Positions 56,098 through 60,126 of a stretch of DNA of 64,000 nt are shown one piece after another (the stretch's first letter is position 1; every line of letters begins with the position of its first letter). The stretch lies in the NCBI RefSeq assembly GCF_041765605.1, contig NZ_CP168900.1, forward strand, positions 1,814,001 through 1,878,000, in the 5' to 3' direction. A model generated the notes under the pieces. It saw only the letters and a list, made by a program, of their open reading frames with translations, had not been told where the DNA came from and did no database searches. Made by a program: the position numbers and the translations under genes. Source of the DNA: Listeria monocytogenes (GTDB lineage Bacteria > Bacillota > Bacilli > Lactobacillales > Listeriaceae).

Positions 56098-56613
56098 TTA
56101 CTTTTCATGAAGTGGTGCTAGGACTAAGAACATCGAACGTCCGTCCATTTTTGGTCTTTGCTCAATTGTACAAAGGTCTTCGCACGCTTTTGCAAAACGG
56201 TCAAGCACCTTCTGACCGATTTCTTTGTGTGTAATGGCACGACCTTTAAAACGGATAGAGCATTTTACTTTATCGCCTTTTTCAAGGAATTTACGTGCAT
56301 TACGTAGCTTCGTATCGAAGTCATGTTCGTCAATCGTTGGACTTAAACGAACTTCTTTCATCACGATGACTTTTTGGTTCTTACGGGCTTCTTTATCTTT
56401 CTTCTGTTGTTCAAAACGGAATTTACCGTAGTCCATGATACGAGCTACTGGCGGTTTCGCTGTTGGAGCAACAAGCACTAGATCAAGATTAGCCTTTTCA
56501 GCAATTTGAAGCGCATCGATTTTACTCTTCACGCCTAATTGTTCACCGTCTTGGTCGATCAATCTTACTTCACGTGCACGAATCCCATCGTTTACCAACA
56601 TGTCTTTGCTAAT
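56098..56613 (-). CDS. infC: Translation initiation factor IF-3
   Basis: The start is the rare ATT at 56613, giving [18 protein letters not shown] precedes it by 6-8 bases. The frame continues upstream to 56667 but this part lies before the ribosome site. 171 residues. N-terminal domain ([17 protein letters not shown]), lysine-rich linker, C-terminal domain ([36 protein letters not shown]). An AUU start is known to allow IF-3 to control its own translation. Confidence 0.97.
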
Positions 56614-56878: not shown

Positions 56879-56922
56879 GGTGAATTAGTTATTTTTATTT
56901 CTTCCCATACTAGGATAGGTTA

Positions 56923-56951
56923 TTGACATAGATTTAAGATTATTATAGACT
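56923..56951 (+). promoter_or_regulatory. Putative promoter of the Ltp-repeat protein gene
   Basis: TTGACA (56923-56928) and TAGACT (56946-56951), 17 bp apart, on the plus strand. The leader to the start at 57135 would be about 175 bases and holds no clear structure. Confidence 0.5.
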
Positions 56952-57134
56952 TAATATGCAAACAAATATTTCTTACAATAATTCGCTATAACGCAACAAC
57001 TTCATTTTTTGAGGCTGTTTTTCTTTTGTCTTCTTTAAAATGAAACTTTAATTGTAAACCTTTTCAACTTTAATTATGTGTGGTATAAACGCATCAGCGA
57101 TTATATAGAAATAACCAAAAAGGGAGATAGAGAA

Positions 57135-57683
57135 ATGGAAAAAGGGAAACAAAAGAAACCACTTTATAAAAAATGGTGGTTCTGGTTAATCGTCGTAATC
57201 GCCGTGGGAGCAATTGGTTCCGCTTTAGGTGGTAACGATACTGCAGCAGATGATACGAAGAACACTGAAAAAGTGGAAACTAAAAAAGTAGACAAAGCTG
57301 ATGATGAGGCAAAGAAAAAAGAAGAGAAAGCTGCTGAAGAGAAAAAAGCAGAAGAAAAGAAAAAAGAAGAAAGCGTTCCATCTGAATATAAATCAGCTCT
57401 AAAAAAAGCGGAACAATATTCTTCTATGATGAAGATGTCGAAAGCTGGTATTTATGATCAATTAACATCCGAAGCTGGTGAAAAATTCTCCGCTGAAGCA
57501 GGAAAATATGCAATTGATAATTTAAAAGCAGATTATAATGCCAATGCCTTAGCAAAAGCAGAAGATTATCAAAAAACGATGGCAATGGCTCCAGAAGCTA
57601 TCCGTGATCAATTAACATCTTCTGCCGGTGAAAAATTCACTGCTGAAGAAGCAGATTATGCGATTCAAAACTTAAGTAAATAA
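57135..57683 (+). CDS. Membrane-anchored protein with two Ltp-type repeats
   Basis: ATG 57135 (MEKGKQKKPLYKK) follows AAGGGAGATAG; the longer ORF lacks a ribosome site. 182 residues. A basic N-terminus, one membrane segment about 15-32 without a lipobox, a Lys/Glu/Ala-rich stalk (about 40-80), then two ~50-residue repeats, each with D-Q-L-T-S-x-A-G-E-K-F-x-A-E. These match the host-cell-surface-exposed lipoprotein (Ltp) domain, known from phage TP-J34 superinfection exclusion and many Gram-positive surface proteins. Function here unknown. It lies alone on the plus strand in the infC-rplS interval. Confidence 0.82.
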   Translation: MEKGKQKKPLYKKWWFWLIVVIAVGAIGSALGGNDTAADDTKNTEKVETKKVDKADDEAKKKEEKAAEEKKAEEKKKEESVPSEYKSALKKAEQYSSMMKMSKAGIYDQLTSEAGEKFSAEAGKYAIDNLKADYNANALAKAEDYQKTMAMAPEAIRDQLTSSAGEKFTAEEADYAIQNLSK

Positions 57684-57699
57684 TCTCTTTTTGGGATTT

Positions 57700-57735
57700 A
57701 AAAAGCTATTCTCTATTTTAGAGCGTAGCTTTTTT
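57700..57735 (+). terminator. Terminator after the Ltp-repeat protein gene
   Basis: AAAAAGCTA/TAGCTTTTTT with inner CTCTA/TAGAG pairing and a T run on the plus strand. Confidence 0.8.
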
Positions 57736-57922
57736 ATTATTTCCTTATTTGTGATTTCAAAAGGACTCCCTTCCATGCGGGGAGCCGCGGAGTTGATTGA
57801 GAAAGCGTATGAGCTATATTTTTATAGCTGGCTTTTCATCTAAAAACCGTATATTCTTATATGTTTATCTACCTGGCTAATACAATCTAACATATTGAAA
57901 AGAATAATTTCAATCAGTCTTT
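57736..57922. other. Short intergenic stretch without a gene
   Basis: Between two convergent units. A GC-rich patch near 57770-57800 (CCATGCGGGGAGCCGCGG) contrasts with the AT-rich surroundings. No frame or clear hairpin is seen. Confidence 0.5.
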
Positions 57923-57958
57923 CAAAAAAGACCTCGACAATCACATCGAAGTCTTTTT
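57923..57958 (-). terminator. Terminator after the lipoprotein gene
   Basis: AAAAAGACTTCGA/TCGAGGTCTTTTTT stem (one G-T pair) followed by six T on the minus strand. Confidence 0.82.
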
Positions 57959-57969
57959 AATTATATACT

Positions 57970-58629
57970 CTAATTATATTCTTTCAAAACATCTTCATAA
58001 ACTTCCTGATAAATTTCTTCTATAACAACCGTTTCTTCTGTGGGGTCCCCGCCATCTAAAAATAATTCTTCTTTAGGTAGCTCTTCCACTGGAAACTTAC
58101 TTATAATTGCATTCGATAGTATGTAGTTATCGCCATCTGGATTTTTTTCTAAGAAAAGTGTATACGCTTCACCTTTTTCCATATTTTTATAACCATCAAT
58201 AGTTAAATCATATTCTTCCCCATCGACAGTAACGTTTTCTACGCTATATTCTAACACTTTAATGGTCATATTCTCTTTCAATTTCCCAGTTGTATCTTTT
58301 TCGATAGAGTTTATTTGGACATCACTCATTGTGTAAAAATCTGTTGGAAATACATTTTCTTTCGTTTCCTTTGTCACTGTTACTTTTTCAGATTTTTTGG
58401 TTGCTTTAATGATAATTGGGGCATCTTTTTCAAGAGCATTCACATCTTCAGCAAGTTCTAGGTATTTCCCGTGACTAGAAACAACGCCATTACGTGATTC
58501 TATTGTTTCTGATCCGCTTTGTGATGTTTGTTCTTCTACTGGCTTTTCTTTTACACTTTTGCTATTAGAACACGCCGTTAGTAAACTAAGGCTTACTAAA
58601 CATATAATCATTGTTATTTTTCTTTTCAT
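57970..58629 (-). CDS. Lipoprotein of unknown function, in operon with a metalloprotease
   Basis: ATG 58629 (MKRKITMIICL) follows GGAGGATTGTCG. 219 residues. Lipobox LLTAC with Cys20. After a low-complexity Ser/Glu/Gln linker (about 21-45), a beta-rich domain (GEEYDLTIDGYKNMEKGEAYTLFLEKNP pattern around residues 140-170, shown only in part) and an acidic tail ending in EEIYQEVYEDVLKEYN. The last part suggests an OB- or NEAT-like extracytoplasmic domain but I cannot name a family. It starts 15 bp after the metalloprotease gene, so both are probably one operon. Confidence 0.78.
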   Translation of the reverse strand: MKRKITMIICLVSLSLLTACSNSKSVKEKPVEEQTSQSGSETIESRNGVVSSHGKYLELAEDVNALEKDAPIIIKATKKSEKVTVTKETKENVFPTDFYTMSDVQINSIEKDTTGKLKENMTIKVLEYSVENVTVDGEEYDLTIDGYKNMEKGEAYTLFLEKNPDGDNYILSNAIISKFPVEELPKEELFLDGGDPTEETVVIEEIYQEVYEDVLKEYN

Positions 58630-58644
58630 CGACAATCCTCCTAT

Positions 58645-59178
58645 TTACTTGTATAAAGATTTAATACCATTAAAATCATCTGTTTGCGGTTTTGTTTTGT
58701 TTATAAAGCCTTTGTCTAGCATAATCGCATTTCTTGTTTTCACATGGCCTAAGCCGAAGCCATGACCAAACTCATGCGCAACGGTTTCTATTTTATGATT
58801 ATTTGAAAGTGAACGGAAACCTTTGTACAGTGTAATCTCATTTTTAGAAATTAATTTATTGGATGTGTTATACGTACTGTTACAAACCGCTAAAACACTT
58901 CCTTTATTCGTATTTGAACTACTTACCGTAAAGTTAGGCTTTACATCATTTCCTACGCTTACTGTATTTAAGTAAGGGGACGGATTCCATGATTTTGCAC
59001 CACTAATAATAATGTTTTTAAACCCTTTTGCTGAACCATTGATATAGATTTTAAAGTTTTTCGCGCTAGCTTTTGTCATCACGCGCCCCAGTTTCGTATA
59101 CGCATTTGCATTAGTTGGCGCTAGCAACGCAACCAATACAGTAAAAACAAGGAATACCGCTAAAGTTTTTTTTCTCAT
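58645..59178 (-). CDS. Small secreted matrixin-like metalloprotease (metzincin)
   Basis: 177 residues. Sec signal peptide with likely cleavage after ANA at residue 26. Zinc motif HEFGHGFGLGH: ligands His135, His139, His145 and catalytic Glu136; Met153 in AIMLDK is a fitting Met-turn. A catalytic domain of about 150 residues is smaller than most matrixins, and no propeptide or cysteine switch is visible (one Cys only, at 99). Found in the region 3' of rplS, first of two genes; AAGGAGATT precedes the ATG. Substrate unknown. Confidence 0.88.
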   Translation of the reverse strand: MRKKTLAVFLVFTVLVALLAPTNANAYTKLGRVMTKASAKNFKIYINGSAKGFKNIIISGAKSWNPSPYLNTVSVGNDVKPNFTVSSSNTNKGSVLAVCNSTYNTSNKLISKNEITLYKGFRSLSNNHKIETVAHEFGHGFGLGHVKTRNAIMLDKGFINKTKPQTDDFNGIKSLYK

Positions 59179-59651
59179 GTTGTAATCTCCTTTTTTTAAA
59201 AATTTCTTTCAAAAAAAGAATAACAAAAAAGTATGATGTATAACCAAAAATGTAATGAAATGTCCGATTCTTGTCGTGAACGATAAAAAATAGAGATTAT
59301 TTAGATTTAATTTTACATAATATGTGTAATATTGCGCTTTTCGTCACAAAAAAGAACCTGTTTTTGGTGACTATTCACGGTTTTATGCACCAATTTTTTT
59401 AGTGTCCACAAAAAGTACATATTCGTTCAGAATTTAAGTTGTTTTTCATGCTTAGTTTCTTTATTTGTTGAAATATTCATCATATTTCATAACAAACCAA
59501 ATGAATAAAAGGGCATAATTATTCATCAAACATTACAATTTTTGCTGTTATAGAAGGTGTTCGTGAAAAAGTGAGGGCTGACATTGAAAATTTTCGCCCC
59601 TTTTAACATTTCCGACAACTTCCACCAGCTCTATTCTAATCCCAAACAAAA
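59179..59651. other. AT-rich intergenic region upstream of the metalloprotease operon
   Basis: About 470 bp without a gene. It probably holds the metalloprotease promoter: minus strand TTACAT-16 bp-TACTTT near 59226-59253, weak. There is a 17-bp near-palindrome TTACATAATATGTGTAA (59313-59329), an imperfect hairpin GTCACAAAAAAG...TTGGTGAC near 59343-59371 and an imperfect dyad around AAATATTCATCATATTT (59471-59487). No PrfA box of the TTAACAnnTGTTAA type was seen. Confidence 0.4.
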
Positions 59652-59680
59652 CAAAAAACCCTTGATTTCTCAAGGGTTTC
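59652..59680 (-). terminator. Terminator after rplS
   Basis: AAACCCTTGA/TCAAGGGTTT stem followed by six T and G/T on the minus strand. Confidence 0.88.
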
Positions 59681-59693
59681 AGCCGTTAAATGA

Positions 59694-60038
59694 TTAACGA
59701 ATTTCTTTAATACGAGCCGCTTTACCACGTAGGTTACGTAGGTAGTAAAGTTTCGCACGACGTACTTTACCACGACGGATAACTTCTAATTTTGCGATAC
59801 GTGGAGTATGTACTGGGAAAGTACGTTCCACGCCAACACTGTTAGAAATTTTACGAACAGTGAAAGTTTCGCTGATTCCAGCTCCGCGACGTTTGATTAC
59901 AACGCCTTCGAATAATTGGATACGTTCGCGAGTACCTTCGACTACTTTCGCATGTACACGTACAGTATCACCCGGACGGAAATTTGGAACATCTGGGTTT
60001 AGTTGACTTTTTGTGATTTCATCAATCAGTTTGTTCAT
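59694..60038 (-). CDS. rplS: 50S ribosomal protein L19
   Basis: ATG 60038 ([13 protein letters not shown]) follows GGAAGGAGAG; upstream codons are leader. 114 residues, standard: [21 protein letters not shown] and [21 protein letters not shown]. Sits at the 30S-50S interface. The leader has a hairpin GACTGG/CCAGTC (60101-60117) that may be an L19-type leader element. Confidence 0.98.
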
Positions 60039-60100
60039 GTTTTTCTCTCCTTCCAACAAACATTCATTCATATTAATAATGAAGCGGAATATCGTTATCA

Positions 60101-60117
60101 GACTGGTCTCTCCAGTC
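60101..60117 (-). promoter_or_regulatory. Hairpin in the rplS 5' leader, possible L19 leader element
   Basis: Perfect 6-bp stem GACTGG/CCAGTC with a 5-base loop, 10-25 bases after the predicted transcript start. Ribosomal protein leaders of the L19 type have a short hairpin here, but the match is not specific. Confidence 0.35.
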
Positions 60118-60126
60118 ACCTTATTT

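Follow-up and report, generated by a model that had tools for sequence, protein, structure and literature searches.

The window analysed here, a stretch of 64,000 nucleotides from a Listeria monocytogenes genome (G000), carries between infC and rplS an insert of ~2.75 kb (56,887-59,632) with three protein genes. The left flank is formed by infC (56098..56601, minus strand), which has been located in 25/25 Listeria genomes and whose DNA is 99.8% identical to that of L. monocytogenes NCTC7974 and FDAARGOS_57, and by the L20 leader of the infC operon on the same strand (RF00558, 56696..56834; Rfam gathering-score match, 69.2 bits). Conservation towards inlC-bearing L. monocytogenes stops at 56886..56887, the left edge of the variable insert, and in other species the break lies within ~45 bp of this position. 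The right edge has been placed at 59633..59647 by interval comparison and is followed by the terminator of rplS (59655..59680, minus strand) and by rplS itself (59694..60119, minus strand; 25/25 Listeria genomes), whose DNA is 99.7-100% identical to that of near relatives.

Open reading frames, Pfam matches and translations bear out the original prediction that three genes lie at this place. An Ltp-repeat membrane protein of the superinfection-exclusion type (182 aa; 57135..57683, plus strand) is followed by a hairpin terminator (57700..57734, plus strand, inverted repeat I10), and a second hairpin (57924..57958, minus strand) terminates a gene pair of the lmo1264-5 type, in which mtz, encoding a secreted metzincin protease (58645..59178, minus strand), precedes tim, encoding a TIMP-like lipoprotein (57970..58635, minus strand), by a spacing of 9 bp. 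Each unit has its own terminator, as proposed, but the units, which had been described as divergent, are in fact convergent. The claim that all three products are exported or membrane anchored also agrees with the predicted features, namely a transmembrane anchor in Ltp, a lipobox in Tim and a Sec signal in the metzincin. Between the two units, the 3' end of an HxlR-family regulator gene has been retained as a fossil (57783..57815, plus strand; 30/33 identical to the HxlR gene of genome G022). Upstream of mtz lies an agr-type promoter element (59227..59327, minus strand) with a 51-bp core at 59240-59290 that resembles the region upstream of agrB, together with an extended agr-type promoter module (59232..59568, minus strand), recognised by its similarity to the module of a second metzincin pair in G000 and by a partial similarity to phage A500.

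Neither an integrase or transposase ORF nor an att site or convincing flanking repeats have been found in the window insert, where only short imperfect repeats occur, and a mobile element (prophage, ICE or transposon) has therefore been rejected. The same applies to a PrfA box left over from inlC, since no box with <=3 mismatches is present in the insert, as compared to the one-mismatch box of inlC-bearing strains.

Properties of the Ltp protein and the mtz-tim pair

The best start of the Ltp gene is the ATG at 57135, which is preceded by a clear ribosome site. The protein contains two PF07553 repeats (Pfam, E 1.3e-42), matches the superinfection-exclusion family phrog_4980 (PHROG 4980) over its full length (8.8e-62) and resembles the Ltp structure PDB 4eqq (9.1e-24). 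With the exclusion proteins of the phage TP-J34 type it shares the C-terminal Ltp repeats and the exported architecture, and exclusion of phage DNA entry is its likely function. Unlike these proteins, it is encoded outside any prophage and has an N-terminal transmembrane stretch in place of a lipobox cysteine; it is membrane-anchored and not a lipoprotein. Among the 25 species genomes, Ltp is found at infC-rplS elsewhere only in G022 (95% protein identity), and a fossil remains at the site in G015 (score 41 vs a shuffle maximum of 23). A recent phage origin has been rejected, as the best full-length match in Listeria phages reaches 39% and synonymous divergence from G022 (dS 0.46) is about as large as in core genes; old residence of Ltp is more likely for the same reasons. 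The HxlR fossil (score 27 vs a maximum of 19 in 500 shuffles) corresponds to a gene that still stands at infC-rplS in other species. Since Ltp is present in G022 and the HxlR 3' end in G000, the G000 site probably once resembled that of G022, with Ltp, flavodoxin, HxlR and VanZ-like genes.

The mtz product carries the zinc motif HEFGHGFGLGH, the Met-turn AIMLD and a Sec signal without lipobox, and it matches Pfam Peptidase_M10 (E 1.8e-08). Residues H135, E136, H139, H145 and M153 (HExxHxxGxxH and Met-turn) are invariant in 20 sequences, and the structural model (pLDDT 87) has been found by Foldseek to resemble karilysin and MMPs (E ~1e-7). Tim shows 80-83% protein identity to the Tim encoded at the CI/Cro site of G018, G017, G012 and G005; its best Foldseek matches, obtained with a poor model (pLDDT 51), are agrin NtA, 'related to N-TIMP-1' (E 1.3e-3), and TIMPs. 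The metzincin and the lipoprotein are the published mtz-tim pair of L. monocytogenes (LMRG_00713-00714, lmo1264-5; PMC8235301), with the same two genes in the same order, the lipobox LTAC in the lipoprotein and a secreted protease that has the complete zinc motif and the Met-turn; the TIMP/NTR-like fold of Tim may be shared as well, to judge from the window model of pLDDT 51.

The published pair has been reported to be controlled by a CI/Cro-like switch, and Mtz to cleave Tim, whereby a TIMP-like fragment is freed that makes cells more sensitive to phage lysins, penicillin and mutanolysin (PMC8235301). By this mechanism, the window copy of Mtz would cleave membrane-anchored Tim and thereby release a fragment that sensitises to phage lysins and wall-acting agents. 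In contrast to the published chromosomal pair, the window pair is not found beside cI-cro but at infC-rplS behind an agr-type promoter, and it represents a diverged allele (~83% DNA identity), with only a fossil left at the CI/Cro site. The missing cI-cro neighbour is no bar to membership, because the published prophage copies lack the switch too. In these copies the promoter sequence is identical to the agrBDCA upstream region (PMC8235301), and an agr-type promoter directly upstream of mtz-tim is shared by the window pair, which differs from them in residing at a chromosomal hotspot without surrounding phage genes.

Related genes have been observed at other places. Two further pairs of a metzincin and an exported partner occur in G000 at C1:2418120-2419301 (L120:2621-3802) and C1:1721397-1722527 (L148:3398-4528); these metzincins (near 2.418 Mb and 1.722 Mb) are ~32% identical to mtz and have agr-type sequence upstream. 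tim can also occur without the protease, as in G013, G022 (L122) and G016 (L123), where no neighbouring mtz is present. In G013 (L124:4048-6012) genes for an exported protein and a VanZ-like protein likely form an operon with tim, but without mtz, at the head of which an agr-type element stands. A relative of the second, distant tim-like family lies at infC-rplS of G005, L. farberi (L037:957-1595), with no adjoining metzincin.

A genus-wide variable site

For a comparison across the genus, infC and rplS have been located in 25/25 genomes of Listeria species and the intervals between them compared. Both genes lie on one contig, within ~18 kb, in 23/25 genomes, and on different contigs in G008 and G023. 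The inserts of these 23 genomes measure between 69 bp and 17,999 bp, with a median of 1.9 kb, and at least eight unrelated insert types have been distinguished across species. Only spacer is found in L. cossartiae (G002), G004, G010, G011 and G021, inlC in G017, G018 and G019, and three internalins in G015. A VanZ-like gene stands alone in G003 and is accompanied by flavodoxin and HxlR genes in G012, L. marthii (G016) and G022; flavodoxin, HxlR, NmrA and MarR genes are present in L. farberi, NmrA and MarR in G024, and a broken exported gene in G013. Other intervals hold type I restriction-modification genes with a zeta-toxin fragment (G020), NeuB-type glycan genes (G009), hydantoinase genes (G006), WxL proteins with transketolase/PTS genes (G001 and G014, with an additional LXG protein in G001) or a mixed island (G007). 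The breaks fall at two nearly constant positions, one just past the promoter of the infC leader and the other at the terminator of rplS. The infC-rplS gap is thus a genus-wide insertion hotspot, which in G000 has no mobility genes of its own. Exchange of the inserts would probably proceed by homologous recombination via the highly conserved flanking operons.

The idea of a variable site has accordingly proven right, and in a stronger form than proposed, as the inserts vary across 23 genomes and the edges are nearly constant. Regarding the possibility that the three genes are ancestral content, no other species has been found to carry all three at infC-rplS. The site is, however, not undescribed as had been supposed. 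That lmo1264-5 takes the place of inlC in lineage III was reported in 2013 (PMC3556495), and Tn7104, a putative ICE with type I RM, was reported in 2021 between lmo1786 and lmo1787, beside inlC, which is the same chromosomal interval (PMC8386393); unlike this putative integrative conjugative element, the window insert has no integrase. Within L. monocytogenes, the states of the site include inlC and mtz-tim, as compared here, and Tn7104 (PMC8386393). The gene pair itself was studied experimentally in 2021 (PMC8235301).

The three genes had further been regarded as a possible defence or competition cassette, an island in which Ltp, Mtz and Tim would act together against phages or rivals. The similarity of Ltp to superinfection-exclusion proteins, the altered sensitivity to phage lysins caused by Mtz-Tim (PMC8235301) and the type I RM or LXG genes at the site in other species are consistent with such a role. 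However, the trio is seen together in no other of the 25 species, of the three genes G022 holds only Ltp at the site and G015 a fossil of Ltp, mtz-tim normally resides elsewhere, and the two units lie on opposite strands with separate terminators. In addition, published Mtz-Tim raises, rather than lowers, phage lysis, no PADLOC match has been obtained for Ltp, Mtz or Tim, and among the three proteins a sequence link to phage defence is seen for Ltp only. A joint function of the three genes is hence regarded as very improbable, and separate histories of Ltp and mtz-tim are favoured.

Origin of the mtz-tim copy

G000 has no inlC orthologue (best internalin match 41%). With two named L. monocytogenes strains, whose records are filed as plasmids in PLSDB, it shares 96.4% and 93.6% identity in the flanking DNA; in both records inlC indeed occupies the infC-rplS interval, as the original prediction states. 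The metzincin of NCTC7974 has been annotated at another place, next to tig and clpX. For lineage III, Kuenne 2013 (PMC3556495) describe that inlC is absent with lmo1264-5 in its place, which has been called a transposition of two lipoprotein genes. Because of this description, and with a flank identity of 93.6-96.4%, G000 is most likely a lineage III strain, represented in our analysis by this one genome, and the rearrangement is the same as the one described there, very likely in the same lineage.

According to the 2013 view, lmo1264-5 was cut from its old site ~600 kb away and moved into infC-rplS, displacing inlC. In relatives, mtz and tim are adjacent and lie beside two XRE regulators as well as the gene that precedes tig; the corresponding place in G000 is ~570 kb away from the infC-rplS insert. 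The pair is missing there and present in place of inlC, as expected for the transposition stated in PMC3556495. However, the CI/Cro switch of G000 at 1.299-1.300 Mb, with both XRE genes open, has retained a fossil of the pair, in which decayed start and end pieces remain: the mtz leader, a degraded signal-peptide region, the last ~44 bp of tim and the terminator (score 37 vs a shuffle maximum of 25). The fossil tim tail matches the G012 allele at 40/44 positions, and the window tim at only 18/20 before diverging. On the basis of these ~44 bp, the window copy appears to be a different allele from the old-site fossil. Furthermore, the upstream region of the window copy does not derive from the old site, and neither a transposase nor notable flanking repeats are present. 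Since a fossil of a different allele has been retained, simple relocation is unlikely. We instead favour that a different allele of mtz-tim would have been gained at infC-rplS, its source probably being an agr-promoted copy that was perhaps carried by a prophage, and that the original pair beside the CI/Cro switch would have decayed in place.

The window pair has ~83-84% DNA identity to the G018 pair, as compared to 88-90% for the genes neighbouring the old site (G000 vs G018). The dS values towards G018 are 1.29 for mtz and 0.68 for tim, with 0.47-0.76 for neighbouring genes, so that dS is clearly raised for mtz only. Because the dS of tim equals that of the neighbouring genes, a strong claim of horizontal transfer based on dS has been dropped; with this partial excess, the window mtz-tim may be fast-evolving or an old internal duplicate. 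In G019, the genome closest to G000 in its XRE145 and TPR genes (95.5-95.9% DNA; L065 vs L119), mtz-tim has been found to belong with that of L. cossartiae and L. marthii and to be 76-77% identical to G000, an allele replacement at the CI/Cro site too.

A closer mtz-tim has not been found in phage or plasmid records, and viral_contigs contains no mtz-encoding record. In the 'phages' collection, mtz occurs only in the records of Listeria phage LM 4-11-1 / 4-14-1 (OR84xxxx), whose content looks like L. monocytogenes chromosome, because sister records match the infC/rplS flanks; they have been rejected as evidence of a phage donor. The PLSDB records NZ_CP030101.1, NZ_LR134401.1 and NZ_LR134403.1, filed as plasmids, likewise look like L. 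monocytogenes chromosomal DNA by their content (infC, rplS, clpX, inlC).

The agr-type promoter and predicted AgrA control

Homology to the CI/Cro-site pair of G018 stops 14 bp upstream of the mtz ATG. The 51-bp core agrees at 48/51 positions (94%) with the upstream region of agrB in G000, where agrB, agrC and agrA are open. The module is 74% identical over ~337 bp to that of the second metzincin pair in G000 and 75% over ~290 bp to phage A500, between gp26 and gp27, shortly past the lysin gene. In G024, the upstream region of an agr-promoted mtz is 77.6% identical to that of the window over 170 bp, reaching to 2 bp short of the ATG. From the rule published for prophage copies and the match to the agr promoter, Agr control of the window mtz-tim has been predicted. 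The pair is thus probably uncoupled from CI/Cro and under quorum-type control, where the action of AgrA is predicted from sequence. It would respond to AgrA, the regulator of quorum sensing, rather than to the CI/Cro switch, which in G000 would be left without its target.

Element-like sequences have also been found on the same strand at the rplS-proximal end of the inserts of G007, G001, G022, G013 and G003 (E 1e-8 to 3.5e-4), with a weak match at the rplS end of G016, and they precede exported or membrane proteins. Accordingly, the agr-type element could be resident at the rplS end, with the cargo (mtz-tim, VanZ-like or other exported proteins) swapped behind a promoter that does not travel with it. 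The common strand and position in these genomes speak for this, as do the elements besides the query at E up to 1e-3, of which three have been found vs 0.22 expected (chance matches summed over all inserts), P about 0.0016, although this chance estimate was made post hoc, after looking. On the other hand, the hotspot elements are degenerate, and the window module is nearer to those of the other metzincin pairs (76%, ~310 bp) than to the hotspot elements (72.7%, 128 bp). A resident element is for these reasons unlikely to explain the window promoter. As a tentative and rather doubtful extension, the rplS end may be an agr-promoter slot, at which diverse exported proteins are exchanged behind a recurring agr-type promoter and the cargo is controlled by quorum sensing. 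If this were true, quorum sensing would control whichever surface cargo a Listeria lineage currently holds, and the G000 lineage would have quorum-controlled mtz-tim where others have PrfA-controlled inlC.

Our preferred reading, to which we assign a probability of about 0.68, is that of a hotspot insert with an older Ltp gene and an agr-promoted mtz-tim of a second allele, the original pair having decayed and control having passed to AgrA. It combines the observed anatomy, hotspot, fossil and promoter similarity with the published biochemistry of Mtz and Tim and with an inferred donor, exchange route and AgrA control. The core events have already been published, and we regard the locus as mostly a known system whose regulatory setting is new and whose site, a hotspot across the genus, is under-described. 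As far as the literature consulted shows, four details are new, namely the extent of the hotspot across the genus, the fossil, the different allele and the agr-type rewiring. In main-text passages of PMC3556495, no mention has been found of a fossil, a different allele or an agr-type promoter, nor of the Ltp gene or of variation across the genus. The classical inlC locus then appears as one state of a genus-wide exchange site, and a genome without inlC is more aptly seen as holding one of many alternative inserts than as having undergone a special loss event. For lineage III, the origin of mtz-tim would be corrected from a move to the gain of a second allele with its own promoter and the decay of the original. 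The predicted rewiring represents a testable change of control in a system that affects how sensitive cells are to phage lysis and wall-acting drugs.
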